DNA from: Acidobacteriota bacterium
GTDB taxonomy: Bacteria > Acidobacteriota > Terriglobia > UBA7540
Reading direction: 5' to 3'
Length of the DNA: 44,400 nt
Assembly: GCA_902812365.1 (NCBI GenBank)
Contig: CADDZC010000027.1
Span: 1 to 44,400, forward strand
In this document: positions 10,875-44,400 of the stretch, one piece after another
How the letters are laid out: the number at the start of each line of letters is the position of its first letter
Position numbering within the stretch: position 1 is the first letter of the stretch
Made by a program: the position numbers and the translations under genes
The notes under the pieces: model-generated
Seen by the model: only the letters and a program-made list of their open reading frames with translations
The model's database searches: none
Told to the model about the DNA's origin: nothing

Positions 10875-10971
10875 CCGGCCGTCCAACCTTGGTTTTTAAA
10901 GAATGCGGTCGGCGGCCGCCGGCCGCAGCGGCCGCACCCCGGGTATCGACTGGTTAGAATACAGGAGGATA

Positions 10972-12447
10972 ATGAAGCTCGCCCAGTTACTGCAGACCGT
11001 ACCGGAAGCCGAAATCAACGCCGACCCCGAGCTCGAAATTCACTCCCTAGCCTATGACTCGAGGCGCGTGTCGCCAGGAGCGCTGTTCTTCGCCATCCAG
11101 GGTGAGAAAGCCGATGGCCACAGGTTCATCCCCCAGGCCCTCGCCTCGGGCGCGGTCGCTGTGGTCAGCGAACGAGCGGCGCCCCCGGATCACGGGTCGG
11201 GCTGGATCCGGGTTCCCAAGATTCGGAGGGCCCTATCCGAAGCCAGCCGCACGTTCTATGGAAAGCCTGACACTCGGCTTATCCTCGTCGGCATCACCGG
11301 CACTAATGGCAAGACCACGACCTCCTATCTGGTGGAGAGCATTCTCGCCGCCGCGGGTATCCCATCCGGCCTGTTCGGGACCATCGAATATCGGGTTGCA
11401 GGCCGTCGAATAGCGGCCGCCAATACGACGCCCGAATCCCTCGACCTGGCCGCGTATCTGGCCGAAGTGTTGAACGCCGCCGGCCGGGCAGCCGTCATGG
11501 AAGTTTCGTCTCATGCCCTGGCGCAGGAGCGCGTGTGGGGATTTCGCTTTCGCGTGGCGGTGTTCACCAACCTCACGCACGATCACCTCGATTATCACGG
11601 AACGATCGAGAATTACTTCGCCGCCAAGCGGCGGCTGTTTGAGGGGCTGGGCACCGGGCCGCCGGAAACCGCCGTCATCAACCAGGATGATCCTTGGGGA
11701 GCGAGACTGCTGTCGCTCTCCTATCCGCGCCTGATTACGTACGGCATGAACTCTGAGGCCCACGTAAGGGTCGAGCAGTGGGCGCAAGGTCCGGGAGGGA
11801 TCCAAGCGACGTTGATCACCCCGCGCGGCAAGCTGCCCATTGACTCGCCGCTCGTGGGGCGTCCCAATCTTGCCAACATTCTAGCCTCGACCGCGGTCGC
11901 CGAAGCCCTCAGCCTCCCGGTCGAGAGCATTCGGGCGGGCATCGCGGCGCTGCGGTCCGTACCCGGGCGTTTTGAGCGCGTCGAGGAAGGACAACCGTTT
12001 CTGGTCATCGTCGATTACGCCCACACCGATGACGCGCTCCGCCAGGTCCTGGAAACGGCCCGCGGACTCGCGCGCGGGCGCGTTATCGTGGTCTTTGGCT
12101 GCGGAGGCGACCGCGACCGCACGAAACGCCCCGTCATGGGCGAAGTGGCTGGTTCCCTGAGCGACCTAGCCGTCCTGACCTCGGACAACCCTCGCAGCGA
12201 AGACCCGCTGGTGATCATGAACGATGTGATGGTGGGCTTGCAGAAGGCGGGGAAACCGTACGTTGCCGAAGTCGATCGTCAGACGGCCATTCGCACCGCG
12301 CTTGAACGAGCCCGCCCGGGTGATGTGGTGGTGATCGCCGGCAAGGGTCACGAAAGCTACCAGATCCTAAAAGATCAGACGGTCCCGTTCGATGACCGTC
12401 AGGTGGCAAGAGGCCTGCTCAGGGACTTGGGATATGGAAAGCAGTAA
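10972..12447 (+). CDS. murE: UDP-MurNAc-L-Ala-D-Glu:meso-diaminopimelate ligase MurE
   Basis: MurE adds the third residue of the peptidoglycan stem peptide in the cytoplasm using ATP. The 491-residue product has the N-terminal UDP-binding domain (HSLAYDSRRVSPGALFFAIQG), the ATP loop GTNGKTT with Lys114, the VMEVSSHAL and FTNLTHDHLDYHG blocks, and the C-terminal domain. D405-N-P-R408 is the signature of enzymes that add meso-diaminopimelate rather than lysine, so this organism should have the Gram-negative type stem. AGGAGG three bases before the ATG at 10972 fixes the start; an upstream in-frame ATG gives an unrelated 23-residue leader. It follows ftsI by about 100 bp. Confidence 0.96.
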   Translation: MKLAQLLQTVPEAEINADPELEIHSLAYDSRRVSPGALFFAIQGEKADGHRFIPQALASGAVAVVSERAAPPDHGSGWIRVPKIRRALSEASRTFYGKPDTRLILVGITGTNGKTTTSYLVESILAAAGIPSGLFGTIEYRVAGRRIAAANTTPESLDLAAYLAEVLNAAGRAAVMEVSSHALAQERVWGFRFRVAVFTNLTHDHLDYHGTIENYFAAKRRLFEGLGTGPPETAVINQDDPWGARLLSLSYPRLITYGMNSEAHVRVEQWAQGPGGIQATLITPRGKLPIDSPLVGRPNLANILASTAVAEALSLPVESIRAGIAALRSVPGRFERVEEGQPFLVIVDYAHTDDALRQVLETARGLARGRVIVVFGCGGDRDRTKRPVMGEVAGSLSDLAVLTSDNPRSEDPLVIMNDVMVGLQKAGKPYVAEVDRQTAIRTALERARPGDVVVIAGKGHESYQILKDQTVPFDDRQVARGLLRDLGYGKQ

Positions 12448-12560
12448 GCCGCCACGAAACCCGGGAACGGTCGGAAGCGCGGCGGCCTTCCGGATTGGCC
12501 ACCGACCCGGCTTCCCCTGGGTTGTTGACCGGCTGCCGGTTGCCGGTTCAAGCTCGAGTT

Positions 12561-14000
12561 ATGAAGCTGTACCTCGATGAGATCGCGACCATCCTCGGTT
12601 CGCCGACTCGGCCGCCGAACGGAGCCGCCGAGCACGCAGCGATTGATTCGCGGACGCTCACGCCGGGCTCGCTCTTCTTTGCGATTCGAGGCGCGCGCCT
12701 GGACGGCCACCGGTTCGTGGTCGAGGCGTTGAATCGCGGCGCTGTGGCCGCGGTGGTGGAAGAAACTTTCCACGCGCAGGCTTCGCCAAACATCCGCGAC
12801 CGCCTGATTCCGGTTCCCGACACGTTGCAAGCGCTGCATCAGCTAGCCCGCGCGGTACGGCGCAGGTGGAACCGGACCCTCATCGCCGTCACCGGCAGCA
12901 CCGGTAAAACGATCACCAAAGAACTGATCGCCGCCGTCCTGGCTACGCGCTGGACGGTACACAAGTCAGCCGGCAATTTGAACAATCAATTTGGCGTGCC
13001 GCTGACGTTGCTGGGTCTCGACCGGCACCACGACGTCGCGGTCGTCGAAATGGGGATGTCGGCAGGAGGTGAGATCACCCGGCTCGCGCGCATGGCCGAG
13101 CCCGAGATCGGCGTGATCACGAACGTCGCGCCCGTGCATCTGGAGTATTTCGAATCCTTGGATGCGATCGCGGCCGCCAAGCGCGAGCTTATCGAAAATC
13201 TGAAGGCCCCGGCCACCGCGGTGCTGAATTACGATGACCCGCGCGTCCGGCGATTTGCGGATGGCTTTGAGGGGCGCGTGGTGACCTATGGGTTGAATCC
13301 GGGGGCGGATTTTTACGCGAGCCGCGTGGAGCTGCGGCTTGGCCAAACCCCTCATCAGATCGGCACGAGCTTTCAGGTACGGGGCCCTGATATCTATGGC
13401 GATTTCTACTTGCCACTGCCCGGGCGTCACAGTGTGGAAAACGCTTTGGCGGCGATTGCGACCGCCAGGGCGTTCGCCGCTCCCGGCTCGGCGGATGCTA
13501 TCGATCCAGAGGATCTCCGTCGCGCCTTCCAAGGTTTCAAGCCCGTGCGGCAGCGGATGGAGATTTCCGTCCTGCCATCTGGTGCCACGGTCATCGACGA
13601 TTCATATAATTCGAACCCACGCGCCATGGAGCAGATGCTCGACACGCTTGCCAACTGGCCTGGAGCCCAGCGCCGCATCGCTGTGGCCGGCGAAATGCTG
13701 GAGCTCGGACCCTCATCGCCCGATTGGCATCGGGCCATCGGTCGCCAGTGTGGAGGGGGAAAGGTGGACTGGCTGATCGCGGTTCAGGGTGACGCGCGTT
13801 ACTTCCTGGAAGGAGCCCGCGAGGCGGGATTGCGCGTCGAACAGGGACGATTCTTTGCCACGGCGAAAGAGGCTGGGGCATTCTGCCGGAGGCTAGTTCA
13901 CGCGGGCGACGTCGTGCTGGTCAAGGGTTCGCGCGGCGTGCATTTGGAAGAGGTCGTCGAGATGTTGCGCGCTGCGGCCACGGCGGAGCCAGGTTCCTGA
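12561..14000 (+). CDS. murF: UDP-MurNAc-tripeptide:D-Ala-D-Ala ligase MurF
   Basis: MurF completes the pentapeptide by ligating D-Ala-D-Ala to the MurE product. The 479-residue protein shows IDSRTLTPGSLFFAIRG in the N-terminal domain, the ATP loop GSTGKT with Lys116, LNNQFGVPLTLL, VVEMGMSAGGEI, NVAPVHLEYF, PGRHSVENALAAIA and VIDDSYNSNPRAM, all in the expected order. MKLYLDEIATILG is a natural opening, so the ATG at 12561 was chosen over one 66 nt upstream; the ribosome site is weak at both. The 113-bp interval after murE holds nothing recognisable. The partner ddl, which makes D-Ala-D-Ala, is not in this window. Confidence 0.95.
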   Translation: MKLYLDEIATILGSPTRPPNGAAEHAAIDSRTLTPGSLFFAIRGARLDGHRFVVEALNRGAVAAVVEETFHAQASPNIRDRLIPVPDTLQALHQLARAVRRRWNRTLIAVTGSTGKTITKELIAAVLATRWTVHKSAGNLNNQFGVPLTLLGLDRHHDVAVVEMGMSAGGEITRLARMAEPEIGVITNVAPVHLEYFESLDAIAAAKRELIENLKAPATAVLNYDDPRVRRFADGFEGRVVTYGLNPGADFYASRVELRLGQTPHQIGTSFQVRGPDIYGDFYLPLPGRHSVENALAAIATARAFAAPGSADAIDPEDLRRAFQGFKPVRQRMEISVLPSGATVIDDSYNSNPRAMEQMLDTLANWPGAQRRIAVAGEMLELGPSSPDWHRAIGRQCGGGKVDWLIAVQGDARYFLEGAREAGLRVEQGRFFATAKEAGAFCRRLVHAGDVVLVKGSRGVHLEEVVEMLRAAATAEPGS

Positions 14001-14064
14001 AATGAGCCTCGACGTGGAAACCGACCCAGGGCAGAATGGTTATTGACGAGTCAACGAGAAGGAC

Positions 14065-15195
14065 ATGTTCTATTTTCTTTACCTCAAGTTTCACGCTCAG
14101 TTCCACATCTTCAATCTTTTCCGCTACATCACCTTTCGTACGGCCTACGCCTCGATCACCGCCCTGGCCCTCTCCCTTTTGCTCGGGCCCTGGCTCATCC
14201 GCAAGCTGCAGGAGTTTCAGATCCGGCAATACATCCGCGAAGACGGGCCGCAATCCCACCAGAGCAAGGCGGGAACGCCGACGATGGGTGGCGTTCTCAT
14301 CAACTTGTGCATCGTCGTGCCCACGCTGCTGTGGGCCGATCTGAGCAACGTGTTCGTATGGCTCGTGATGGGCGTGACCGTCGCGTTTGCAGCCATCGGC
14401 TTCTGGGATGATTATCAGAAGGTCCGCCAGCGGCGGAACCTGGGCCTGACGGCGCGACGCAAGCTCTTGTTGCAAGTCCTGGTGAGCTTTCTGTTCGGCA
14501 TCGCTCTCATTGTGCTAACGTCCAAGGGGCTCTATTCCACCGACCTTACCTTTCCATTTTTCAAGCGCATTCATCCAGACTTCTTAATCCCGTTTTTTTT
14601 TCGCAGTCCGTGGACTTATCCGCTCGCCTTCCTGCCGTTCTTAGTCTTTATGATCTTCATTCTGGTCGCTTCGTCCAATGCCGTGAATCTCACCGACGGC
14701 CTCGACGGCCTCGCCATCGGGTGCGTCATCGTTTCGGCGTCGGCGCTCACGGTCCTGACTTATGTGGCCGGCAATGCGGTGTGGGCCAGCTACCTCGACG
14801 TGGAACATTTGCCCCGGGTCGCTGAGCTCACCACATTTGATGGGGCCATGGTCGGATCGAGCCTCGGCTTTCTCTGGTACAACGCTTATCCGGCGGAGAT
14901 CTTCATGGGCGACGTCGGTTCACTCGCTCTGGGCGGCGGGATCGGAAGCGTAGCGATCATCATCAAGCAGGAGTTGTTACTGCCCTTCATCGGCGGCATT
15001 TTTATGATTGAAGCGCTGTCGGTCATTCTCCAGGTCACTTCGTACAAACTGCGGCGCAAGCGAATCTTTCGCATGGCGCCCATTCATCATCATTTTGAGC
15101 TCGAGGGGTGGAAGGAATCGAAAATCATTGCCCGGTTCTGGATCGTCGCGCTGGTCTCCGCCCTGTTCGCATTGACGACTCTGAAACTGCGGTGA
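14065..15195 (+). CDS. mraY: Phospho-MurNAc-pentapeptide transferase MraY
   Basis: MraY transfers phospho-MurNAc-pentapeptide from UMP to undecaprenyl phosphate, forming lipid I at the inner membrane. The 376-residue product has about ten membrane segments. Catalytic blocks are visible in order: SHQSKAGTPTMGG near residue 70, FWDDYQK with the paired aspartates near residue 115, NLTDGLDGLA near residue 210, FMGDVGSLALGG near residue 280, and the carboxy-terminal APIHHHFELEGWKESKI histidine cluster. AGAAGGA precedes the ATG. It follows murF in standard order. Confidence 0.97.
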   Translation: MFYFLYLKFHAQFHIFNLFRYITFRTAYASITALALSLLLGPWLIRKLQEFQIRQYIREDGPQSHQSKAGTPTMGGVLINLCIVVPTLLWADLSNVFVWLVMGVTVAFAAIGFWDDYQKVRQRRNLGLTARRKLLLQVLVSFLFGIALIVLTSKGLYSTDLTFPFFKRIHPDFLIPFFFRSPWTYPLAFLPFLVFMIFILVASSNAVNLTDGLDGLAIGCVIVSASALTVLTYVAGNAVWASYLDVEHLPRVAELTTFDGAMVGSSLGFLWYNAYPAEIFMGDVGSLALGGGIGSVAIIIKQELLLPFIGGIFMIEALSVILQVTSYKLRRKRIFRMAPIHHHFELEGWKESKIIARFWIVALVSALFALTTLKLR

Positions 15196-15479
15196 TGATC
15201 GCACCGGAAATGTTGGCGCACGAATCGAAATTGACGTTCTGACGTTCTGACCGCAGAATAACTCTCGGCGGGCCAGAGAGAAATTCGACGCACTCAACTC
15301 TGAACATTGGGCTTCGAGGCGCAAGGGGCCCGAAGTCAGGGCCGGGAGCATAAGGATATGGCGGCGAACTCCGTGGCGGGGCGCGAGCTGCCCCGTTCAA
15401 CACAGGCGAAAATGGCTGTGGGCTCCCTTTTTCAAGTGCCGATTCCGCAGCTTTCGGCTCCGACGCCCGACTGGCTGAT
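15196..15479. other. Intergenic stretch between mraY and murD
   Basis: This 284-bp gap is the longest inside the division cluster. It contains a tandem direct repeat GACGTTCT (15233-15240 and 15241-15248). A 62-codon open frame (15307-15495) overlaps the murD start but has no recognisable product or ribosome site, so I do not call it. No clear promoter or terminator was found. Confidence 0.5.
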
Positions 15480-34491: not shown

Positions 34492-34520
34492 TTGACACGC
34501 CGGCTCGATGCTTGCAGACT
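34492..34520 (+). promoter_or_regulatory. Candidate promoter for the PEP-CTERM gene
   Basis: TTGACA at 34492-34497 is followed after 17 bp by CAGACT (34515-34520), which resembles the TAGACT -10 of mraZ. The predicted leader is about 100 nt. Confidence 0.4.
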
Positions 34521-34626
34521 GATGCCGGCGAAGGTGGCCCTCTCGAGGCCGTCATCGGCAACGCTCAGGGCTGGTCACCCGAGTCGGCATTTTCCATCGC
34601 CGCGGACTGAACTCAAGAAGGGGAGA

Positions 34627-35352
34627 ATGATCGCCATGAGGAGCAAGACCAGGTGGGCAGTGGTTTTGACCGGCGTCGCGTTGCTGGTCGCTTCTTCACC
34701 CATGTGGGCAGTAGGAACCTTCTATGACCTCAGCCAGTGCAGCAATGTCGTTTCGCCACCCAATGGATGTACGGCAGGGTCGGTGAACGGCGTCAACGGC
34801 ATCCTGCTGACCAACGTGCCCGGCGTGAGCAAGGTCGTCTATAACAGCGCCACGGACAACATTCAGGCCGAAGCCTTTCAGTTGAGCAACGGAGCGAATG
34901 TCAACGTCTTTGACAAACGGGGGGGTGCCGATGAAACCGGGCTGGGCATCGACCCCAACCTGGAAATTCACGGTGAGATCAATCAGAACTTTGCCCTGGA
35001 ATTATATATCCCGGGTCTCGGAAGCGGTTGGCAACTTCAAATCGAAAGTGAGCAACTGGGCGAGTCGGCGATCATCTGCCTGGAGTCCGGCTTTTCCGGC
35101 AACCCATCGGCGGCCGATTGCATCGCCTCCACGGGTTCCGGCTCCTCGGCCTCCGTCAATGTTGACCTGTCACCCTTGTTCACCGGAGGGCATTCCGGAA
35201 GCTATCTGGCCATCACGGGGGGAGGCAGCGGAGGAAGCGAAGACGTTTTGGTGGATGGCGTTACACCGACTCCTGAGCCGGGCTCGATGCTGTTGTTTGG
35301 TTCCGGCTTGCTTGGCCTCGGAGGCCTTCTGCGCCGGAGATGGTGCCGGTAG
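34627..35352 (+). CDS. PEP-CTERM anchored secreted protein
   Basis: The 241-residue product has an N-terminal signal (RSKTRWAVVLTGVALLVASSPMWA), a mature region of low charge rich in Ser, Gly and Asn, and a C-terminal sorting signal, PTPEPGSMLLFGSGLLGLGGLLRRRW. The PEP motif, hydrophobic helix and basic end are processed by an exosortase in other bacteria. No exosortase or EPS genes are in the window. Two Cys pairs (CSNV..NGC and ICLE..DCI) could form disulfides. AAGGGGAGA before the ATG at 34627 supports the start. The gene reads divergently from uvrC and convergently with the next. Function of the mature part is unknown. Confidence 0.88.
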   Translation: MIAMRSKTRWAVVLTGVALLVASSPMWAVGTFYDLSQCSNVVSPPNGCTAGSVNGVNGILLTNVPGVSKVVYNSATDNIQAEAFQLSNGANVNVFDKRGGADETGLGIDPNLEIHGEINQNFALELYIPGLGSGWQLQIESEQLGESAIICLESGFSGNPSAADCIASTGSGSSASVNVDLSPLFTGGHSGSYLAITGGGSGGSEDVLVDGVTPTPEPGSMLLFGSGLLGLGGLLRRRWCR

Positions 35353-35523: not shown

Positions 35524-36096
35524 TTATCTTGCCCACAAGGCAATTTTCTGGCGGATTTCCTGGGCGGTTAGGAAAGGCTGTCCCGCTTGCTGGGCGGTGG
35601 TTGCATAAACCGGGTGCGTCGTACCGTGGTACGTCGGGCCGACGTACTTGGAGCCAACGTATTGATCCGCCGCCACCCGGCAGAACAGGCACCAGATCCT
35701 CGGGTAGCGCAGGTTCTGGCGATCGAGCAGAGTCAGCACCTGCCCTAGGGTGGTGCTCCGGTGGCGGCGAATGACGAGCACGTTGAACTTGGTGCCGTTC
35801 AGCAAGCCGGCGATGGCGTGCTTGCGGGGATCGCCTTCGAAGTAGCTTAGGTCATAGTCGTGTATGGTCGGCCCTGGATCGGGATTTTCGGCGGGCTGCA
35901 CCAGTCCCTGAATGGCACTCCCTAAACCGGCCACCAAAGCGGTGCTGGACGGCGTACAAAAGGCAATCGCCGTGCCAAACGGTGTCATAATCGTGTTCGC
36001 CGACTTGAACCCATGACTGGATATGATTAGCGTGAACGTGGCGTTCGGCTTGCCGGAACTGATGATCGTGCCGACATGGCCCAGTGGCGTTTCCAT
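35524..36096 (-). CDS. Small protein, possible Stv-type putative adhesin domain
   Basis: The 190-residue product starts at the ATG at 36096, where GGAGG lies 8 nt upstream; the frame is open further but lacks a better site. The first 60 residues, especially TFTLIISSHGF and FGTAIAFCTPSSTAL, remind me of the Stv putative adhesin domain, where a SAHG-like motif is followed by a P.GT...FY.P.G..L block; this is from memory and tentative. The rest includes VLVIRRHRSTTLGQVL and RYPRIWCLFCRVAADQ, where a CLFC pair could bind metal or form a disulfide. No signal peptide or membrane segment is apparent. Function unknown. Confidence 0.6.
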   Translation of the reverse strand: METPLGHVGTIISSGKPNATFTLIISSHGFKSANTIMTPFGTAIAFCTPSSTALVAGLGSAIQGLVQPAENPDPGPTIHDYDLSYFEGDPRKHAIAGLLNGTKFNVLVIRRHRSTTLGQVLTLLDRQNLRYPRIWCLFCRVAADQYVGSKYVGPTYHGTTHPVYATTAQQAGQPFLTAQEIRQKIALWAR

Positions 36097-36332
36097 GAGA
36101 GTCGCCTCCAAAGTGTAGTTCCATTTACGAACAATAACTCCTTCTTCCAGAGCATGGCCGCGATCGTCCAGCCGTCCTCGAGCGTACCTTTGCGACGCGA
36201 ACTCAACAGAAACTCCCGGCCCCGGTTCGGAGGCCGGGCCGCGCCGAGGGCCGCCGCCCCTGCAACCCGGTCTTTCCTCATTCGGCATTCACAATTCCGC
36301 GCTCATCGTTCATAATTCATGCTTCCTTGAAT
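36097..36332. other. Intergenic stretch upstream of the acyl-ligase fusion gene
   Basis: This divergent gap holds a 7-bp GC hairpin (CCCGGCC 36215-36221 with GGCCGGG 36232-36238) and two near-identical AT-rich words, ATTCACAATTC at 36287-36297 and GTTCATAATTC at 36308-36318, just before the ATG at 36333. No consensus promoter was found for either gene. Confidence 0.4.
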
Positions 36333-39140
36333 ATGACCGCCACTCCGCGACACGCCGTCACCCCTGCGGTGGAAGAGCAAGTGCTCGAGCTGGTGCGGGA
36401 ACTCCTGCGCGAACTCGGGGCGCATGCGGCCGCCGCCCACACCACGCTCGATTCGTCTTTGGAGCGCGATCTGGGGCTCGGCAGCCTGGAGCGCGTCGAG
36501 CTCCTGGTGCGGGCCGAGGCGCGCTTCAACGTGCGCCTGCCTGATGAGGTAGCCGAGGAGGCGGAAACCCCGGGCGAGTGGGCGAAGGCTATTTTGGCGG
36601 GGGGGCGGCCGCAGGCCTCCGCGCCGCCCCGTTACCAGATCCGGCAGCCGGCGCGCGAGGCCCCGACGGCCCCCGAAACCGCCTCGACCTGGGTGGAAGT
36701 CCTGCGCCATCACGCCGAGCTCGAGCCGGAACGCGTGCACATCCACCTGCTCGAAGAAGAAGCCGGGCAGGACATCACTTACGGCCAACTGCTCGAGACG
36801 GCGTCGGCGGTGGCGGCCGGATTGGTTGCCAAGGGCCTCCAGCCCAACCAGACGGTGGCCATCATGCTGCCCACCTGCGCCGATTTCTTCTACGCCTTCT
36901 TCGGGGTGATGCTCGCGGGCGGCATCGCCGTGCCCATCTACCCTCCGGCGCGGCTGGACAAAATCGAAGAGTACGTCCGCCGCCAGGTGGCCATTCTCCG
37001 CAACGCCGAGGTTCGCTTTCTCATCAGTTTTGGCCAAGTCAAGGCTGTCTCGAAGATCATCGGGGTGAGCCTGCCGAGCCTGGTGGAAACAACCAGCGTG
37101 GAGGCGTTGCGCCGGGCGGGAGCCGGCGCTTCGCGGCGCCTGGAGGCTCCGCCTTCCGACACGGCGTTTATCCAGTACACCTCGGGCAGCACGGGAGATC
37201 CCAAGGGCGTGGTGCTGAGCCAGGCCAACGTGCTGGCCAACGTGCGCGGCATCGGCTGGGCGGTTAAGTTCCAGCCGAGGGACGCAGTGGTGAGCTGGCT
37301 GCCGCTCTATCACGACATGGGATTGATCGGCTCGTGGCTCTTCAGCGTCTATTTCGGCGCCCCGATCACGATCCTGTCGCCACTGGCCTTTCTGAGCCGT
37401 CCCGAGCGCTGGTTGTGGGCGCTGCACGACTCGCGCGGGACGCTCTGCCCGGCTCCCAACTTCGCCTACGAGCTCTGCGCCCGCAAGGTTCCCGATCAGG
37501 CGCTCGAAGGGCTGGATCTGAGCGCCTGGCGCGTCGCCATCAACGCCGGTGAAGCGGTGCTCCCCGGCACCTTGGAGCGTTTCGAAGAGCGCTTCAAACC
37601 CTACGGCTTCCGCGCCGAAAGCTTCGTGCCGTGCTACGGCCTGGCGGAATCCTCGGTCGCCCTGGCTTTTCCGCCGATCGACCGGCGTCCGGTGATTGAC
37701 GTGATTTTCCGCGACCTCTTCGAGTCGGAAGGCCGCGCCGTGCCGGCGGGCAACGCGGGCTCCGCCGAGAACCGGGTACTCCGCTTCGTTCTGAACGGGA
37801 AGCCCTTGCCCGGCCATGAAATTCGTGTGGTGGATGGCGAGGGCCGGGACCTGCCGGAGCGCGTCCAAGGCCGAATCCTTTTCCGGGGTCTGTCGCGGAC
37901 GCCGGGCTATTATCGCAACCCTGGGGCCACGGCCGCGGTCATGAGCGCGGACGGGTGGATGGACACGGGCGATCTGGGTTACTGGGCGAACGGCGAGATC
38001 GTGGTGACGGGAAGGTCCAAGGATCTCATCATCAAGGGCGGCCATAACCTGGTGCCGCAGGAGATCGAGCGCGCCGCGGCCGAGGTCCCGGGTGTGCGCA
38101 AGGGCTGCGTGGCGGCGTTTGGGACGCGCGAGGAGGCTACCGGAACCGAGAAGCTGATCGTCGTGGCCGAGACCCGGGCCACGGGCCGCGAAGAACGCGA
38201 GCGAATTGAGGCCGCGATCGTCCAGAGCGTGGACGCGGCGGTCGGCACGCCCCCCGACAGAGTGGTCCTGGTGGCTCCCCAGACGATCCCGAAGACTTCC
38301 AGCGGGAAGATTCGGCGTAGCGAGACGCGCCTCCGGTACGAAAGCGGGCGACTGGGCACCGGGCGGCGGCCTCCGTGGCTGCAGCTGGTCCGGCTCTGGC
38401 TGGGTAATTCCGGAGCTTGGCTAGGTAAGCGGATGGAACGCGCCGGCGGCGGACTGCGGAAGCTGTACGCTGCGGCCCTGCTGGCGTTCATGGGTTCGGC
38501 CACTGTGGCACTGAGCCGGCTGATGCCCGGTCAGCGGGCGGCTCAGAGCTTGGCGCGGCAAGCGGCGCGGGCGTTGCTGTGGCTCAGCGGGCATCGGGTG
38601 AGCGGGCCGCCCCGGGAAGCGATCGGCCGGCACCGGCCGGCGGTTCTGGTGGCCAATCGCGCCGCGCGGTTCGACCCCGTCGTCCTGGCTGCGGTGCTAC
38701 CCGAACGCTTTCTGTTTGCCGACGCAGGTGCCCTGGCAGGTCTGCCGGCACGCGCCGCCCAGATGTTGAAACCCTTGGTCGTGCCGGAAATCAAGGGCGA
38801 GCGGAAGCCACCGGGCGGGACGCCAAGGGCACGCATCCGGAAGGCGCTCGAAAGCGGCCACACGGTGCTCGTGCTGTCGGACGGCCCGCCGAGCATCCCA
38901 CCGCATCTGAGCCGCTACCGCTTGGACGCCCTGCAGGCGGCGGTGGCGACGGGGCGGCCGCTGGTGCCCGTTGCGATCCGCGGGACAGGACGTATCTTAC
39001 AGATAGGAAGTCACTTAGTTCATCGCAGCGAGGCGAGAATCGCGGTAGGGGCTCCGATTCACGCCGAGCCCGACGGCGGTCGGGAATTGGTCAGCTTGCG
39101 GGACGCTCTGCGCGAGGCCATCGCGGAACTTTGTCGTTAA
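36333..39140 (+). CDS. ACP - acyl-AMP ligase - degenerate acyltransferase fusion
   Basis: The 935-residue protein has three parts. Residues 1-90 form an acyl-carrier domain with LGLGS51LERVEL, where Ser51 should carry phosphopantetheine. Residues about 110-680 are an adenylate-forming ligase of the fatty-acyl-AMP/CoA type: YTSGSTGDPKGVVLS, WLPLYHDMGLIGSWL, CYGLAESSVALAFP, DTGDLGYWANGEIVVTGRSKDLIIKGG and PKTSSGKIRRSETRL. Residues about 740-935 resemble a PlsC-type acyltransferase, but the catalytic NHxSxxD reads N775-R-A-A-R-F-D781, losing His and Ser, and FPEGTRS reads L848-S-D-G-P-P-S854. The last part is therefore probably inactive or used for binding. Start: ATG 36333 inside an AT-rich leader; TTG 36327 is also in frame. 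plsY follows 42 bp on. Confidence 0.85.
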   Translation: MTATPRHAVTPAVEEQVLELVRELLRELGAHAAAAHTTLDSSLERDLGLGSLERVELLVRAEARFNVRLPDEVAEEAETPGEWAKAILAGGRPQASAPPRYQIRQPAREAPTAPETASTWVEVLRHHAELEPERVHIHLLEEEAGQDITYGQLLETASAVAAGLVAKGLQPNQTVAIMLPTCADFFYAFFGVMLAGGIAVPIYPPARLDKIEEYVRRQVAILRNAEVRFLISFGQVKAVSKIIGVSLPSLVETTSVEALRRAGAGASRRLEAPPSDTAFIQYTSGSTGDPKGVVLSQANVLANVRGIGWAVKFQPRDAVVSWLPLYHDMGLIGSWLFSVYFGAPITILSPLAFLSRPERWLWALHDSRGTLCPAPNFAYELCARKVPDQALEGLDLSAWRVAINAGEAVLPGTLERFEERFKPYGFRAESFVPCYGLAESSVALAFPPIDRRPVIDVIFRDLFESEGRAVPAGNAGSAENRVLRFVLNGKPLPGHEIRVVDGEGRDLPERVQGRILFRGLSRTPGYYRNPGATAAVMSADGWMDTGDLGYWANGEIVVTGRSKDLIIKGGHNLVPQEIERAAAEVPGVRKGCVAAFGTREEATGTEKLIVVAETRATGREERERIEAAIVQSVDAAVGTPPDRVVLVAPQTIPKTSSGKIRRSETRLRYESGRLGTGRRPPWLQLVRLWLGNSGAWLGKRMERAGGGLRKLYAAALLAFMGSATVALSRLMPGQRAAQSLARQAARALLWLSGHRVSGPPREAIGRHRPAVLVANRAARFDPVVLAAVLPERFLFADAGALAGLPARAAQMLKPLVVPEIKGERKPPGGTPRARIRKALESGHTVLVLSDGPPSIPPHLSRYRLDALQAAVATGRPLVPVAIRGTGRILQIGSHLVHRSEARIAVGAPIHAEPDGGRELVSLRDALREAIAELCR

Positions 39141-39161
39141 GTAAGTTATTGATAATATTAG
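39141..39161 (+). repeat. Dispersed repeat copy (TAAGTTATTGATAATA) ahead of plsY
   Basis: TAAGTTATTGATAATATTAG just after the stop of the fusion gene resembles the TAAGTTGTTGAAAATA core of the repeat cluster at 1359-1583. Here the TTGATA part also forms the plsY -35 element. Confidence 0.5.
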
Positions 39162-39176
39162 ACTTACGATTAGAAT
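39149..39176 (+). promoter_or_regulatory. plsY promoter with +1 at the ATG
   Basis: TTGATA (39149-39154) and TAGAAT (39171-39176) are 16 bp apart. The normal offset of 7 bases from the end of the -10 places +1 on the A of the plsY ATG at 39183, and no ribosome site is visible. A leaderless message is therefore predicted. Confidence 0.55.
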
Positions 39177-39182
39177 GGCGAT

Positions 39183-39830
39183 ATGGTAGGGGCTGTGATC
39201 CTGCGATTTGCCGTCTGCTTTGCGCTCGGATCCATTCCGTTTGCCGTGATCTCGATGCTCGGCACGGGCATCGACATTAGGAAGGTGGGGTCAGGGAATC
39301 CAGGGTTCAATAACGTCTTGCGGGTCAATAAGAAACGGGCGATCCTGGCCCTGTCGGGGGACCTGGGCAAAGGCCTTCTGGCCATCTGGCTGGTGGTGCG
39401 GGCGTGGCCTGCGCCTTTGTCGCCGATTAGCGCGGTGGCGCTCGGCTGGCTTTATGGATTTGGCGCCGTGCTCGGACACTGCTTCTCACCATTCCTTAAG
39501 TTCAATGGCGGCAAAGGGATAGCGACGTCCGCGGGAGTCATGCTGATCCTCTATCCTCGCTGGGCGGTCATTGGATTGGCGTACTTTACTGCCGTGCGGC
39601 TGGCGGGTGCCAAATTGAAATGGAGAGAGGCCGGAACTATCGCATCCTTAACCACTTGGGTGCTGTTTACGCTGCTCATGTTGCTCTTCGTCGGCCGCCT
39701 TGACGCTCTTTATGCCGCTCTCATGACGCTGTTTCTCGTCTGGCGGCATCAGTCGAACCTGCGGCGGCTGAAGTCCGGCGAATCGCCCGCTCTCGGAGCG
39801 GAAGCCATCGGGAGGGAGAAGGGCGCCTGA
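39183..39830 (+). CDS. plsY: Acyl-phosphate:glycerol-3-phosphate acyltransferase PlsY
   Basis: PlsY makes 1-acyl-glycerol-3-phosphate from acyl-phosphate and glycerol-3-phosphate at the inner membrane. The 215-residue length and several membrane segments fit. The three family motifs are present: GSIPFA..., VGSGNPGFNNVLRVNKKRA (usually GSGNxGATN, so GATN is FNNV-like here), GDLGKG, and GHCFSPFLKFNGGKGIAT. FGAVLGHCFSPF and LVWRHQSNLRRL also match. It follows the acyl-ligase fusion; PlsX is not in the window. The C-terminal 20 residues are charged and unconserved. Confidence 0.88.
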   Translation: MVGAVILRFAVCFALGSIPFAVISMLGTGIDIRKVGSGNPGFNNVLRVNKKRAILALSGDLGKGLLAIWLVVRAWPAPLSPISAVALGWLYGFGAVLGHCFSPFLKFNGGKGIATSAGVMLILYPRWAVIGLAYFTAVRLAGAKLKWREAGTIASLTTWVLFTLLMLLFVGRLDALYAALMTLFLVWRHQSNLRRLKSGESPALGAEAIGREKGA

Positions 39831-39851
39831 TCGTGATGAATAAAAACCATA

Positions 39852-39870
39852 CTTATTTGCAACAGCTTAG
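39852..39870 (-). repeat. Inverted copy of the dispersed repeat before the HAD gene
   Basis: On the minus strand this reads CTAAGCTGTTGCAAATAAG, close to CTAAGTTGTTGAAAATACG in the cluster near 1411. It ends 8 bases before the ATG of the HAD gene. Confidence 0.45.
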
Positions 39871-39878
39871 CAGGATCT

Positions 39879-40565
39879 ATGGCTCGTCTAGCCTTCTATG
39901 ACTTGGATGGCACCCTGGTTTCAGGCAACGTTGTTGAACGCTACGCCTTCTTCGTTCGCCACCTGCCTTCAAAAGTCCGGGCGATTCTGAAGTTCTCGAA
40001 GTTGCTGGCTAGCCTCCCCCTTTACGCCGGTCTCGATTTCTATTCGCGGGGGGTTTTTAACCGAGTGTTCTTCCGAGCCTATCGCGGCATGGACGAAGGG
40101 TGGCTGCGATCGATGGAAGCAGCTTTGTTTCAACGAGTTATACTGCCGAGCCTGTACCCGGGCGCCAAGCCCTTGGTCGATTGCGACCGCGCCGCCGGAT
40201 TCCATCCCGTGCTGGTAACGGGCGAACTCGATTTCGCCGTCGCGCCGCTCGCCGATTACTTCGGATTCGAAGCCGTTGTCGCCAACTCGTTGATTTTCAA
40301 AAATGGTGCGGCAACCGGCGAGGTTGCCCAACCCTTGGTGGCCGGCCGCGAGAAGGTTGGGGCTATCCTCCGCCTCTGCCGCGAACGCGGCGTGGCTCCC
40401 TCGGACTGCAAGGCTTACTCTGATAGCTTCTCCGACGCCCCCATGCTAGAATCCGTGGGTTATCCTGCGGCTGTGAACCCGGATCGGCGCTTGCGGCGTG
40501 TGGCGGCTGAGCGTGGCTGGCCCATCCTGGATTTGAAAGGAAACCACCATGTCCGAACCGGCTGA
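39879..40565 (+). CDS. HAD-IB family phosphatase
   Basis: The 228-residue product belongs to the haloacid-dehalogenase superfamily, subfamily IB (SerB-like). Motif I is FYDLDGTLVSGN with the nucleophile Asp8 and acid-base Asp10; motif II is LVTGELDFAV; motif III Lys is in AGREKVGAIL; motif IV is YSDSFSDAPML. An inserted helical cap (about 15-110) follows motif I. HAD-IB enzymes include phosphoserine and lysophosphatidate-type phosphatases, and those beside acyltransferases are plausible lipid phosphate phosphatases, which is my inference. Its last 17 bases overlap the next gene, so the two are coupled. Start at 39879 with CAGGAT as a poor ribosome site. Confidence 0.85.
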   Translation: MARLAFYDLDGTLVSGNVVERYAFFVRHLPSKVRAILKFSKLLASLPLYAGLDFYSRGVFNRVFFRAYRGMDEGWLRSMEAALFQRVILPSLYPGAKPLVDCDRAAGFHPVLVTGELDFAVAPLADYFGFEAVVANSLIFKNGAATGEVAQPLVAGREKVGAILRLCRERGVAPSDCKAYSDSFSDAPMLESVGYPAAVNPDRRLRRVAAERGWPILDLKGNHHVRTG

Positions 40566-42279
40566 CAGAGGCGGCGCGGCGGCTGCCGGGCCCGATTCCG
40601 CCCGGCCCGAGCCAAGTTTCGGCTTTCCGATTCCGGACTTTGGCGATCCGGCGCCCAACGCCGTCGGACGCCGGGCGTTGGTGCCGCACGAGGGTTGCGT
40701 GGTTCACCTCGAGGCGAACTCTGCGCCGCGCCTGATGTGGTTCGGAGAGGACCTGCTGGCCGTCAAGTTTCCCGCCGGGACGCGCGTGATGTACCCTAAG
40801 CCCACCGTCCCGGGCCTCACGGACTTTGACGCCGCCATCCGTTACGCCATTGCCCACCCCGAAGGCATGGAGCCGCTCGCCGCCCTGCTGCGGCCGGGCA
40901 TGAAGGTTACGATTGCCCTCGATGACATCTCTCTGCCCCTGCCCCAGATGGTGCGGCCCGACGTCCGGGAGTCCGTCTTGAGGGTTCTTCTGCCGCTGCT
41001 CGCCGCAAAAGGGGTCGACGACCTCCACCTGATCATCGCCACGTCGTTTCATCGCCGCATGCACGAATTCGAGATTCGGCGCGTCGTCGGATCGAGGATT
41101 TTCCGGCAATACTATCCGCACCGCCTTTACAACCACGACGGCGAAGCTCCCGGCGGCATGGTCGAGCTGGGCACCACCGATCACGGCGAGCGCGTGCGCC
41201 TCAACCGCCGCGCTGCCGAATCGGACCTGCTGATCTATGTCAACATCAACCTCGTGCCCATGGACGGCGGCTCGAAATCCGTCGGCGTGGGGCTGTGCGA
41301 CTATCCGACGCTGCAGGCTCATCACACGCCCCAGACCATTCGGGCCTGCGACTCCTATTTCGATCACACCCGCTCGGCCATGAACCGCTCCTGCGACCGC
41401 ATCGGCCAGGTCATCAATCGCCATCTGAAGGTGTTTCATATCGAAACCGTCCTCAACAACCGCATGTTCGATCCCCGGCTGAGGTTTTTCACGCGCCCCG
41501 AGGATCGCTACAGCGCCGCTGACCGCGCCCTGTTCGCCGCCACGCGGCGCGCCCTGAGCCGGTTGCCGCGGCCTTGGAAGCGCCGGATGCTGTTTGCCGT
41601 TCCAGCGCCGTACCAGCCCATCGCCGTCCACGCCGGAGCCACGCTGCCGGTGCACGAGAAGACGCTGGCCTACTGCTATGCGCAGTATTGCTGTCCGATG
41701 GAGGGCCAGAGCGATGTGGTGGTCTACGGCATTCCGTTTATCTCGCCTTACAACGTCAACTCCATTTTGAACCCGCTGCTGGTGCAAGTCATGGCGCTCG
41801 GATATTTCCATAACATGTACCGCGGCATGCCGGTGGTGAAGAAGAACGGCGTGCTCATCCTCACCCATCCCCTTTACGACGAGTTTCATCCCCGGCACCA
41901 TCCCTCCTACATCGAGTTCTTCCACCGCATCCTGCCCGAAACCCGCGACGCGCTCGAGTTGCAGCGAAAATACGAGGAGGAATTCGCCCGCCATCCCGAT
42001 TACATCCGCCTCTACCGCACCGGCAACGCCTATCATGGCGTCCATCCGTTCTACATGTGGTACTGGGGCGAGAACGGGCGGGCGCACGTCGGCAAGGTGA
42101 TCTGCGTGGGCGCGGAGTCGAAACGCGCCGCCGAAATCATGGGCTGGGAAACCGCTCCGAACATGGACGAGGCGCTCGACAGAGCCCAGTCCTACCTCGG
42201 CCGCAAGCCCAGTATCACCCTGATGCACTTCGCTCCCATCCTGATGGCCGACGTGGCCGGGACGCCGCAAAGCGTCTGA
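40549..42279 (+). CDS. Large LarA-like (DUF2088) protein
   Basis: The 576-residue protein matches the LarA/DUF2088 N-terminal domain: VTIALDDISLPLP, IIATSFHRRMHEFEIRRVVG, YNHDGEAPGGMVELGTTDHGERVRLNRRAAESDLLIY. LarA uses a nickel pincer cofactor tethered to Lys184 with His108, His174 and His200 (L. plantarum numbering). Here His168 in SFHRR should correspond to His108, and Lys243 in PMDGGSKSV to Lys184, but the PH in the LarA motif is PM, so His174 appears missing. A ~290-residue C-terminal half (VYGIPFISPYNVNS, HHPSYIEFFHRILPETRD, KVICVGAESKRAAEIMGW) does not match LarA from memory. The first 35 residues are a low-complexity extension. Start overlaps the HAD gene. No larB, larC or larE is present. 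Confidence 0.8.
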   Translation: MSEPADRGGAAAAGPDSARPEPSFGFPIPDFGDPAPNAVGRRALVPHEGCVVHLEANSAPRLMWFGEDLLAVKFPAGTRVMYPKPTVPGLTDFDAAIRYAIAHPEGMEPLAALLRPGMKVTIALDDISLPLPQMVRPDVRESVLRVLLPLLAAKGVDDLHLIIATSFHRRMHEFEIRRVVGSRIFRQYYPHRLYNHDGEAPGGMVELGTTDHGERVRLNRRAAESDLLIYVNINLVPMDGGSKSVGVGLCDYPTLQAHHTPQTIRACDSYFDHTRSAMNRSCDRIGQVINRHLKVFHIETVLNNRMFDPRLRFFTRPEDRYSAADRALFAATRRALSRLPRPWKRRMLFAVPAPYQPIAVHAGATLPVHEKTLAYCYAQYCCPMEGQSDVVVYGIPFISPYNVNSILNPLLVQVMALGYFHNMYRGMPVVKKNGVLILTHPLYDEFHPRHHPSYIEFFHRILPETRDALELQRKYEEEFARHPDYIRLYRTGNAYHGVHPFYMWYWGENGRAHVGKVICVGAESKRAAEIMGWETAPNMDEALDRAQSYLGRKPSITLMHFAPILMADVAGTPQSV

Positions 42280-42303
42280 TCGGCGAGCGAAGCCCGCCCG
42301 TTA

Positions 42304-42309
42304 TACAAT
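42304..42309 (+). promoter_or_regulatory. -10 element ahead of the SDR gene
   Basis: TACAAT at 42304-42309 lies 25 bp after the LarA-like stop; no clear -35. Predicted +1 at about 42316. Confidence 0.35.
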
Positions 42310-42375
42310 GAATTCTTGCCGCTCCTCATGGCGGAGGCGGCGGCTGGGCCAGCCGCCGCGCCGCGGCACGCGGAC

Positions 42376-43395
42376 ATGAAACCCATTCTCGTCACCGGGG
42401 CCACGGGATTCCTCGGCCGGCATCTGGTTGAACAACTGCAAACGTCGCTCCGCCGCGAATCCCCCGCGCCGGTTGCCCGGCTGCGGCTGCTCTACCGCGG
42501 GCCGTCGCCCGGGCCGGCCGACCCGGCCATCGAGGTGGTGCGCGGCGACGTCACCTCGCGCGGCGATGTGGAGCGCGCTGCCGAGGGAGCGGGCGAAATC
42601 TATCATCTGGCGGGCGTCGTGTCCCGCGATCCGCGCGACGCCGAGCTGCTCTACCGGGTCCACGTCGAGGGCACCCGCAACGTGTGCGAGGCGGCGCTCC
42701 GGCACGGAGCCGGCAAGGTCGTGGTGGTCTCGTCGTCGGGCACGATCGCCGTGAGCCGCGAGCCGGTGGCCCGCCACGAAGAGTCCGGTTACCAGCACGA
42801 CCTCGTCGGCGACTGGCCGTATTACCTGAGCAAGATTTTCGCCGAAAAGCTGGCCTTGCGGTATTTCGAGCGCGAGCGGCTGCCGGTGGTGGTGGTGAAT
42901 CCGAGCCTCGTGCTCGGCCCGGGCGACGAGCGGAATTCTTCGACCGGAGACGTGGCGCTGTTTCTGAAGGGGCAGATTCTGGCCTTGCCGCGCGGCGGCT
43001 TGAACTTTGTCGACGCCCGCGACGCCGCCGCCGGCCTGATCGCGGCGATGCGCCGGGGGCGTCCGGGCGAGCGCTACCTGCTCGGGGCGGTCAACTGGAG
43101 CTTTCGGGAGCTGATCGCCCAGACGGCGCGGATCGCCGGCCGGCGGCCGCCCCGACTGCAGCCTTCGCTCCGAACTTCGCTCTGGAGCGCCCGCCTGCTC
43201 CGCCGGCTTTATCGGCTGGCCGGCCGGCGGTTCGAGCTCGACGACGAATCCATCAAGATGTCGGCGCTGTTCTGGTATTGCGACACGGCGAAAGCGCGCC
43301 GCGAACTGGGATTTCAGACGCGCGACCCGCTCGAGACGTTGCGGGCCACGGTCGACGACTTGCGCCGCCGCCGGGGAAAACCGGAAAATGAATGA
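42376..43395 (+). CDS. Extended SDR NAD(P)-dependent reductase/epimerase
   Basis: The 339-residue product opens MKPILVTGATGFLGRHLVEQL, the Rossmann GxxGxxG motif, followed by VVRGDVTSRGDVERA, EIYHLAGVVSRDP, VVVVSSSGTIAV and the catalytic YYLSKIFAEKLALRYF with Tyr and Lys in YxxxK. VVNPSLVLGPGD and the C-terminal FQTRDPLETLRATVDDL are typical of dihydroflavonol-reductase-like or epimerase members. Substrate cannot be told. The start was set at 42376 because the fold begins there; in-frame ATG at 42328 and TTG at 42316 would add a low-complexity leader. It precedes the lipid kinase in the same direction. Confidence 0.87.
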   Translation: MKPILVTGATGFLGRHLVEQLQTSLRRESPAPVARLRLLYRGPSPGPADPAIEVVRGDVTSRGDVERAAEGAGEIYHLAGVVSRDPRDAELLYRVHVEGTRNVCEAALRHGAGKVVVVSSSGTIAVSREPVARHEESGYQHDLVGDWPYYLSKIFAEKLALRYFERERLPVVVVNPSLVLGPGDERNSSTGDVALFLKGQILALPRGGLNFVDARDAAAGLIAAMRRGRPGERYLLGAVNWSFRELIAQTARIAGRRPPRLQPSLRTSLWSARLLRRLYRLAGRRFELDDESIKMSALFWYCDTAKARRELGFQTRDPLETLRATVDDLRRRRGKPENE

Positions 43396-43447
43396 TCGAG
43401 GCCAGGCTCGTCGGCCGGGGCGGCTCGGCCGGTCTTCGTGAGTCACG

Positions 43448-44400
43448 ATGAGCGACACGCGGCGCATGGCCGCCATTGTCAATCCGCATTCGGCGCGCGG
43501 CCAGACGGCCCGTCGCTGGGGCGAGCTCTCGCAGGAGCTCGAGCGGCGGCTGGGCCCGGTGACGGCACGCTTCACGGAATCGGCCGGCCACGCCACGCGC
43601 CTCGCCCGCCAGCTCCTCCAGGAAGGCTTTGACCTGATCATCGCCGTCGGAGGAGACGGCACGATCAACGAGACGGCCAACGGCTTTATTGAAGACGACC
43701 GGCCCGTGCGGCCCGCCGCCTGCCTGGGCCTGCTCCCGCTCGGCACCGGCGGCGACTTTCAGCGCACGGTGGGCGTACCGTCGCGGCCCGCCGAGGCCAT
43801 CCAGATTCTGGCCACCGGAGCGCCCCTCGAGATCGACATTGGGAAGATTTGCTACACCAATCCTCGCGGCGCGGCCGAATCCCGCTATTTTGTCAACCTG
43901 GTCAGCTTCGGCATGGGCGGGGACGTGGCCGAACGGTCCAAGAACTTCCTGACGCCGCTCGGCGGCAAGGCGGCGTTCTTCTGGGCGACGCTCGTCACCA
44001 TGCTCGACTATCGCGGCCAGCGCGTCGAGCTCGAGCTCGACGGACAGCCTTTGCCCCAGCCCTGCTTCATGACCAACGTGGCGGTGGGCAACGGCGAGTT
44101 TCACGGCGGCGGCATGCATCCCTGCCCGAAGGCGCGGCTCGACGACGGCTGGCTCGACGTGACCGTGATCGATTATCTGAATCTCTTCGAGCTGCTGCGT
44201 GATATCCGCGTCCTCTATTCCGACAACGTTTACCGGCATCCCAAGACGCATCATTTCCGCGCCCGCCGGCTGGTGGCGAGAAGCGACGAACGGACGCGCA
44301 TCGAAGTGGATGGCGAGGCCTTGGGCTCGCTGCCGGTCGAGATCACGCTGCTGCCCCGGCGGCTCCGGGTCATCGTTCCCCGCGCCCGCCCGCCCGCGAG
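43448..44400 (+). CDS. Diacylglycerol kinase-family lipid kinase, 5' part
   Basis: The frame opens at ATG 43448 and stays open to the window end (317 codons), so the 3' end is not seen. The catalytic domain is clear: AAIVNPHSARGQTARRW at the N-terminus, LIIAVGGDGTINETANGF near residue 62 with the nucleotide-binding GGDGT, and LGLLPLGTGGDFQRTVG near residue 100 (the GTxNDF motif is GTGGDF, with Gly for Asn). NVAVGNGEFHGGGMHPCPKA and LDVTVIDYLNLFELL lie in the second domain, and VDGEALGSLPVEI near the end matches the family closing. DagK-type enzymes phosphorylate diacylglycerol, sphingoid or related lipids. Nearly the full length (about 300 residues) appears to be present. Confidence 0.9.
   Translation, partial: MSDTRRMAAIVNPHSARGQTARRWGELSQELERRLGPVTARFTESAGHATRLARQLLQEGFDLIIAVGGDGTINETANGFIEDDRPVRPAACLGLLPLGTGGDFQRTVGVPSRPAEAIQILATGAPLEIDIGKICYTNPRGAAESRYFVNLVSFGMGGDVAERSKNFLTPLGGKAAFFWATLVTMLDYRGQRVELELDGQPLPQPCFMTNVAVGNGEFHGGGMHPCPKARLDDGWLDVTVIDYLNLFELLRDIRVLYSDNVYRHPKTHHFRARRLVARSDERTRIEVDGEALGSLPVEITLLPRRLRVIVPRARPPA

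Follow-up and report, generated by a model that had tools for sequence, protein, structure and literature searches.

A probable split Elb-type gene module in an acidobacterial contig, and the nickel-pincer protein ElbC as a candidate for the ether-bond step

In Myxococcus xanthus, ElbD is required for ether lipids, and its acyl-CoA synthetase (ACS) and acyl carrier protein (ACP) domains are active in vitro; the same review calls ElbC, a second product of the elb operon, a protein of unknown function and lists as unresolved how the fatty acid is turned into an alkyl ether (PMC9131029). We compared this operon with six consecutive plus-strand open reading frames (ORFs) at the right end of contig CADDZC010000027.1 from an Acidobacteriota bacterium (assembly GCA_902812365.1). 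The whole stretch of 44,400 nucleotides (the window) is one complete contig of a 3.5 Mb genome. We conclude that the window very probably carries a module of the Elb type, in split form, that serves alkyl-ether glycerolipids. Because its ElbC homologue belongs to the LarA family of nickel-cofactor enzymes, ElbC becomes a candidate for the step that forms the ether bond.

Using Pfam and NCBIfam profiles, the six ORFs were assigned to the families that a sequence-only reading of this DNA had listed: a ligase fusion, PlsY, HAD-IB, LarA-like, a short-chain dehydrogenase/reductase (SDR) and a lipid kinase (Table 1). The ligase is like fatty acyl-AMP ligases (FAAL). The overlap it had seen between the HAD and LarA-like genes is 17 bp (40549-40565). 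Its suggestion of a split Elb-type pathway is supported by direct BLAST comparison with the elb operon of M. xanthus strain AM003 (L107), in which elbC was identified by gene order and families and not by DK1622 locus tag. The AM003 order, SDR-HAD-LarAH-ElbD-SDR, is that of elbA-E, the ends of elbC, elbD and elbE overlapping by 4 bp. The LarA-like gene lies between the gene for the ElbB-type HAD and that for a 1474-aa protein with fatty acyl reductase (FAR), AMP-ligase, ACP and acyltransferase (AT) domains, an ElbD architecture that Pfam confirmed on acidobacterial homologues. The window LarA-like protein and ElbC share 58.5% identity over 528 aa, and the HAD is 41% identical to ElbB; the SDR is 41.7% identical to ElbE and 31.3% to ElbA. 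A FAR was searched for inside the window and was absent. The source genome carries one on another contig (C42:24030-25631), among unrelated genes; it is 67% identical to the query FAR and 36.9% identical to the ElbD N-terminus over 559 aa. Because HAD, LarA-like protein, SDR and FAR match ElbB, ElbC, ElbE and the N-terminus of ElbD, we regard the window set as a split Elb-type module. A single ElbD with FAR, AMP-ligase, ACP and AT domains is absent from the window, where the fusion has no FAR, begins with the ACP and ends in a degenerate AT; we therefore describe the set as split and Elb-like, and not as an elb operon in the strict sense.

The full gene order is seen in related Acidobacteriota: FAR, ACP-FAAL-PlsC fusion, plsY, HAD, LarA-like, SDR, lipid kinase. 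Seven split-type loci (same family and order) have a separate FAR directly upstream of the fusion, which is followed, as far as the contigs reach, by PlsY, HAD, LarA, SDR and kinase; a lipid kinase follows the SDR in L064, L065, L072, L074, L077, L078 and L085. The FAR is the seventh gene of the cluster in these relatives and lies on another contig in the source genome. Other Acidobacteriota (L082, L087, L089 and L094) have HAD-LarA-FAR-SDR-kinase without the fusion, and at a Gemmatimonadota locus (L105, 7236-15035) ligase, HAD, LarA and FAR are all separate genes. L105 also holds a reductase-like and a CDP-alcohol phosphatidyltransferase-like ORF, both judged by eye. The HAD-LarA-like order is kept in other classes of Acidobacteriota, in Myxococcota and in Gemmatimonadota, so that its conservation reaches beyond close relatives. 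In a tree of 101 ElbC-type proteins (a quick tree, with a root for drawing only), the split and FAR-only acidobacterial loci come together in a single supported group (34 rows), none of them with an adjoining ElbD, and most ElbD-linked sequences fall outside it. L112, a record named Comamonas sp. KCTC 72670, has an elb locus near-identical to that of Myxococcus (branch 0.0065) and is probably a mislabelled or contaminated assembly.

The association was also examined around the ElbC-type gene itself. LarAH14/15/16 proteins scored above the NCBIfam cut-off in 26 of 297 Acidobacteriota genomes. Among named genomes, relatives were drawn from the best 80 of >570 matches, so this survey leans to close relatives. 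The neighbourhood test used 63 ElbC-type loci flanked on each side by 5 kb or more; without three contigs that were present twice, 60 distinct loci remain. Within 8 kb of the ElbC-type gene, and always on its strand, a HAD was found at 61/63 loci (58/60 distinct), a FAR at 46/63 (43/60), an SDR at 38/63 (35/60) and ElbD at 33/63 (32/60). Around 22 other LarA homologues, mostly from the same genomes, HAD, FAR, ElbD and SDR were found at 0/22. Related species in the ElbC-locus counts are not independent; the contrast with the control loci is very large, and on this basis a chance neighbourhood was rejected. No metabolically different neighbourhood of the LarA-like gene was found, although 17 of the 63 loci are without a FAR within 8 kb. 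Bryobacterales and part of the Archangiaceae retain mainly HAD and LarA; in Bryobacterales L081, L084, L090 and L092 the ElbC-HAD pairs are close, with no FAR, SDR or ligase nearby. Plasmids, searched as a source of other ElbC contexts, gave weak LarA matches only.

The fusion stands in for the ACS-ACP-AT part of ElbD. The best NCBIfam match of its ligase is the fatty acyl-AMP ligase PRK09192, with a score under the family cut-off, and its identity to the ElbD ligase domain is 26.8% by BLAST. As the two ligases are merely distant superfamily relatives, the idea that the fusion is a rearranged ElbD was rejected. An ACP domain is present in 12 of 13 other fusions, with the ACP serine retained in all 12. 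The C-terminal acyltransferase match is weak and in the window fusion scores under the Pfam cut-off, and where PlsC/AGPAT acyltransferases have the catalytic HX4D motif the fusions have NRX4D, the His of NHX4D being Arg in 13/14 aligned sequences; the EGTRS motif is degenerate too. The acyltransferase domain of M. xanthus ElbD retains NHSSHLD and EGTRS. Judged by these motifs, the PlsC-like domain of the fusion is probably inactive as an acyltransferase. Despite the loss of the catalytic His (13/14; window fusion and fusions L062-L095) the domain is still recognisable, perhaps as a leftover with a structural or docking role. The window PlsY is the sole PF02660 match in the source genome.

Next to its 58.5% identity with ElbC, the window LarA-like protein scores 804.4 bits against NF052592 (LarAH14/15/16), for which the cut-off is 740. 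Its AlphaFold model, with a predicted local distance difference test (pLDDT) score of 89, matches 9q3k with Z 37.0 and 2.4 Å over 454 residues, and LarA (5huq) with Z 28.5. In LarA, Lys184 anchors the nickel-pincer nucleotide (NPN) cofactor, His200 is a nickel ligand, and His108 and His174 are catalytic. K243, H259, H168 and D126, the equivalents of Lys184, His200, His108 and Asp72, are invariant in 40/40 homologues. The second catalytic His (His174) is lost in all 40, with a four-residue deletion in its loop, and the Arg75 equivalent is Leu, Val, Gln or Met. We consider it very probable that ElbC binds NPN, and probable that an NPN-dependent ElbC acts within the ether-lipid module. With both the second base and the carboxylate-binding arginine lost, the site would suit a non-inverting reaction on a substrate other than a hydroxy acid. 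An ordinary 2-hydroxy-acid racemase or epimerase was rejected on the same two positions. LarA groups 14 and 15 have been described as being without His174 (PMC12611868), and LarA proteins without the second His have been suggested to run another hydride-mediated reaction (PMC7583248).

The genes for the cofactor accompany ElbC. LarB is found above cut-off in 29/30 and LarE in 28/30 ElbC genomes, and the source genome has both of these, the two that were searched for there. M. xanthus has LarB, LarC and LarE, with LarC adjoining LarB. ElbC is the only Lar_N protein in M. xanthus and in five more Myxococcus genomes, and LarB, LarC and LarE are retained in all of them. Since LarB, LarC and LarE are present and ElbC is the sole LarA homologue, the NPN pathway of M. 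xanthus plausibly serves ElbC. Among 193 Myxococcota genomes, 152 have a Lar_N protein, and 148 of these have LarC; of the 41 that have no Lar_N protein, 20 have LarC.

In animals, the ether-forming step is catalysed by AGPS, which swaps the acyl chain of acyl-dihydroxyacetone phosphate (acyl-DHAP) for a fatty alcohol. M. xanthus has a second operon of overlapping genes that encodes AGPS (MXAN_1676 in strain DK1622), a FAR-AT protein and an ElbE-like SDR. The elb operon has the same partner families, with ElbC (together with HAD, ligase and ACP) in the place of AGPS. Of 30 ElbC genomes, 4 have a close AGPS orthologue and 2 more a distant one; in the source genome no orthologue was found, the matches being partial (best 29% over ~230 residues) and to generic FAD oxidases. 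Because ElbC replaces AGPS among the same partners, and because AGPS is rare in ElbC genomes, we propose ElbC as the ether-forming enzyme, and rate the chances that it acts at this step as even.

A possible scheme can be outlined from the families present. The FAAL domain would adenylate a fatty acid and load the N-terminal ACP of the fusion, an activity reported for ElbD; the FAR encoded elsewhere in the genome would reduce the acyl-ACP to a fatty aldehyde or alcohol, and PlsY, replacing the decayed acyltransferase domain, would yield 1-acyl-glycerol-3-phosphate. ElbC with NPN would then draw a hydride off the acylated glycerol backbone at C2. The short-lived ketone, comparable to the one in acyl-DHAP, would permit exchange of the acyl chain for a fatty alcohol at C1, after which the hydride would be given back. 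ElbC would thereby stand in for AGPS, needing no flavin and leaving the centre uninverted. The SDR might reduce a carbonyl intermediate, the HAD might remove a phosphate, and the lipid kinase might re-phosphorylate alkyl(acyl)glycerol for phospholipid synthesis, acting like an alkylglycerol kinase. We advance this hidden-redox exchange only tentatively. In its fullest form, ElbC would be an NPN ether-lipid synthase on glycerophosphate, an aerobic flavin-free counterpart of AGPS and a main ether-lipid route in myxobacteria and many Acidobacteriota, with the first membrane-lipid role and the first non-isomerase reaction for NPN; that extended version we consider doubtful.

Several observations weigh against this assignment. 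To our knowledge, LarA enzymes act only on alpha-hydroxy acids, and we know of no ether lipid from the source organism. The fusion ligase is not orthologous to that of ElbD, and many of the loci without a nearby FAR have a HAD alone. PlsY may be in the cluster for housekeeping reasons, since it is the only PlsY of the source genome. The same genome has a 1216-codon DUF2229 (CoA-enzyme activase) protein (contig C23:32818-33513), which may be a candidate for a PlsA/Ger-like ether or plasmalogen route. Lastly, the M. xanthus review describes no elbC mutant, ascribes the effects of elbB to polarity, and reports that the FAR yields aldehyde, not alcohol, which is a poor fit to an alcohol exchange (PMC9131029).

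A first alternative is that the head group or backbone of the ether lipid comes from a 2-hydroxy acid (glycerate, a hydroxy fatty acid or a sugar acid) that ElbC epimerises or racemises, the ether bond being the work of another component. Wherever an activity has been assigned to a LarA homologue, it is the racemisation or epimerisation of a 2-hydroxy acid (PMC7583248, PMC11770544), and single-His LarAs have been proposed to work one way on D-substrates (PMC12611868). However, none of the 40 homologues aligned has the second catalytic His or an equivalent of Arg75, the Frankia group-14 enzyme was inactive on all seven reactions tried (PMC7583248), and the neighbours are fatty acid and glycerolipid genes rather than hydroxy acid genes. 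We think this explanation rather improbable.

A second alternative keeps ElbC at the ether bond and changes the chemistry: a hemiacetal of fatty aldehyde and glycerol phosphate would be reduced, with NPN as the hydride carrier and the SDR regenerating it. ElbD mutants lose i15:0 aldehyde and the ElbD reductase was proposed to make aldehyde (PMC9131029), and because aldehyde rather than alcohol is reported, this route fits better than the exchange on that point. An SDR accompanies the module as well, although it lies within 8 kb at only 38 of the 63 full loci, and no external hydride donor is known for NPN; we rate the hemiacetal route as unlikely. We judge as similarly unlikely that organisms with the split cluster make the ether bond by a PlsA/Ger-like activase-dehydratase, with the cluster acting downstream. 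A PlsA-type route has been proposed for Solibacter usitatus (PMC10087280), and of 21 ElbC genomes tested, 9 (the source genome and 8/20 others) have a DUF2229 protein; the other 12, among them M. xanthus, are without it, and M. xanthus makes its ether lipids via Elb. That the genes, with no bearing on ether lipids, serve housekeeping synthesis of glycerolipids through PlsY, phosphatase and kinase, joined by a lipid-modifying enzyme, would suit the single PlsY and the broad functions of the HAD and kinase families, but is very unlikely given that relatives of ElbB, ElbC, ElbE and the ElbD FAR are kept as a module across phyla.

Table 1. Features of the probable split Elb-type module in the window
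Feature	Position	Strand	Basis
ACP - fatty acyl-AMP ligase - degenerate PlsC-like fusion, 935 aa	36333..39140	+	PF00550, PF00501, weak PF01553
PlsC-like domain of fusion, NHX4D -> NRX4D	38616..38978	+	alignment of 14 fusions
PlsY, acyl-phosphate:glycerol-3-phosphate acyltransferase	39183..39830	+	PF02660, 136.8 bits
HAD-IB phosphatase, ElbB homologue	39879..40565	+	TIGR01490 above cut-off; 41% to M. xanthus ElbB
LarA-like nickel-pincer protein, ElbC homologue, 576 aa	40549..42279	+	NF052592; 58.5% to M. xanthus ElbC
Extended SDR (HpnA/3Beta_HSD-like), ElbE homologue	42316..43395	+	PF01370; 41.7% to ElbE
YegS/DAGK-type lipid kinase, cut by contig end	43448..44398	+	TIGR00147 above cut-off; PF00781, PF19279

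The kinase ORF stops at the window end because the window is the whole contig; the gene is nearly complete, the YegS_C match covering 2-158 of 158. The minus-strand ORF just before the cluster (35524-36288) encodes a putative adhesin Stv domain (PF21527) and adjoins a PEP-CTERM protein (34492-35352).

The assignment of ElbC to the nickel-pincer family makes the formation of the ether bond in the main (ElbD) pathway of aerobic bacteria a testable question, and the same question underlies the soil paleothermometers based on branched glycerol dialkyl glycerol tetraethers (brGDGTs) made by Acidobacteria. If it is correct, LarA homologues of groups 14 and 15, so far without a substrate, gain a physiological role. 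In the literature searched, no link between nickel-pincer enzymes and bacterial ether-lipid synthesis was found, and an earlier mention of ElbC as a LarA protein is possible. The sequence-only reading's label of a possible undescribed pathway was too strong, as the Elb kind is already described; what appears to be new is the split arrangement, together with the nickel-pincer character of ElbC. Because the split form exists, searches keyed on ElbD miss producers, and organisms scored as having no ElbD may still carry FAR, ElbB, ElbC and ElbE. Solibacter usitatus, an ether-lipid producer, reportedly has no ElbD (PMC10087280). Its relative L087 (Candidatus Sulfopaludibacter, Solibacteraceae) has HAD-LarA-FAR-SDR-kinase without ElbD at 9270-15300, and a split elb set in S. 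usitatus may therefore have been overlooked.

Set against the elb operon of M. xanthus, the window has homologues of ElbB, ElbC and ElbE with the same adjacency of HAD and LarA, a homologous FAR in the source genome, and ACS, ACP and AT-like functions. It differs in having no ElbD, the FAR being separate and on another contig; in using another, FAAL-type ligase protein with the ACP at its N-terminus and a degenerate AT; and in adding PlsY and the lipid kinase. The M. xanthus AGPS operon shares the FAR, AT and ElbE-like SDR families, whereas its ether-forming enzyme is a flavoprotein and it has no LarA, HAD, ligase or ACP. Within the LarA superfamily, the window protein falls in group 14/15/16 (NF052592), above the cut-off and with the equivalents of the NPN Lys, the nickel His, His108 and Asp72; what differs is that this type is now placed in an ether-lipid operon. 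The nearest solved folds are the single-His LarAs of Streptococcus plurextorum (9q3k, Z 37.0) and Blautia wexlerae (9q3j, Z 33.5), which likewise have one catalytic His. Where the ElbC type has the four-residue deletion at the lost His and Leu or Val for Arg75, these have Asn and Lys, respectively, and they have been linked to carbohydrate genes. In comparison with these systems, the window is a split variant of a known module, and a strong, testable lead on the function of ElbC.

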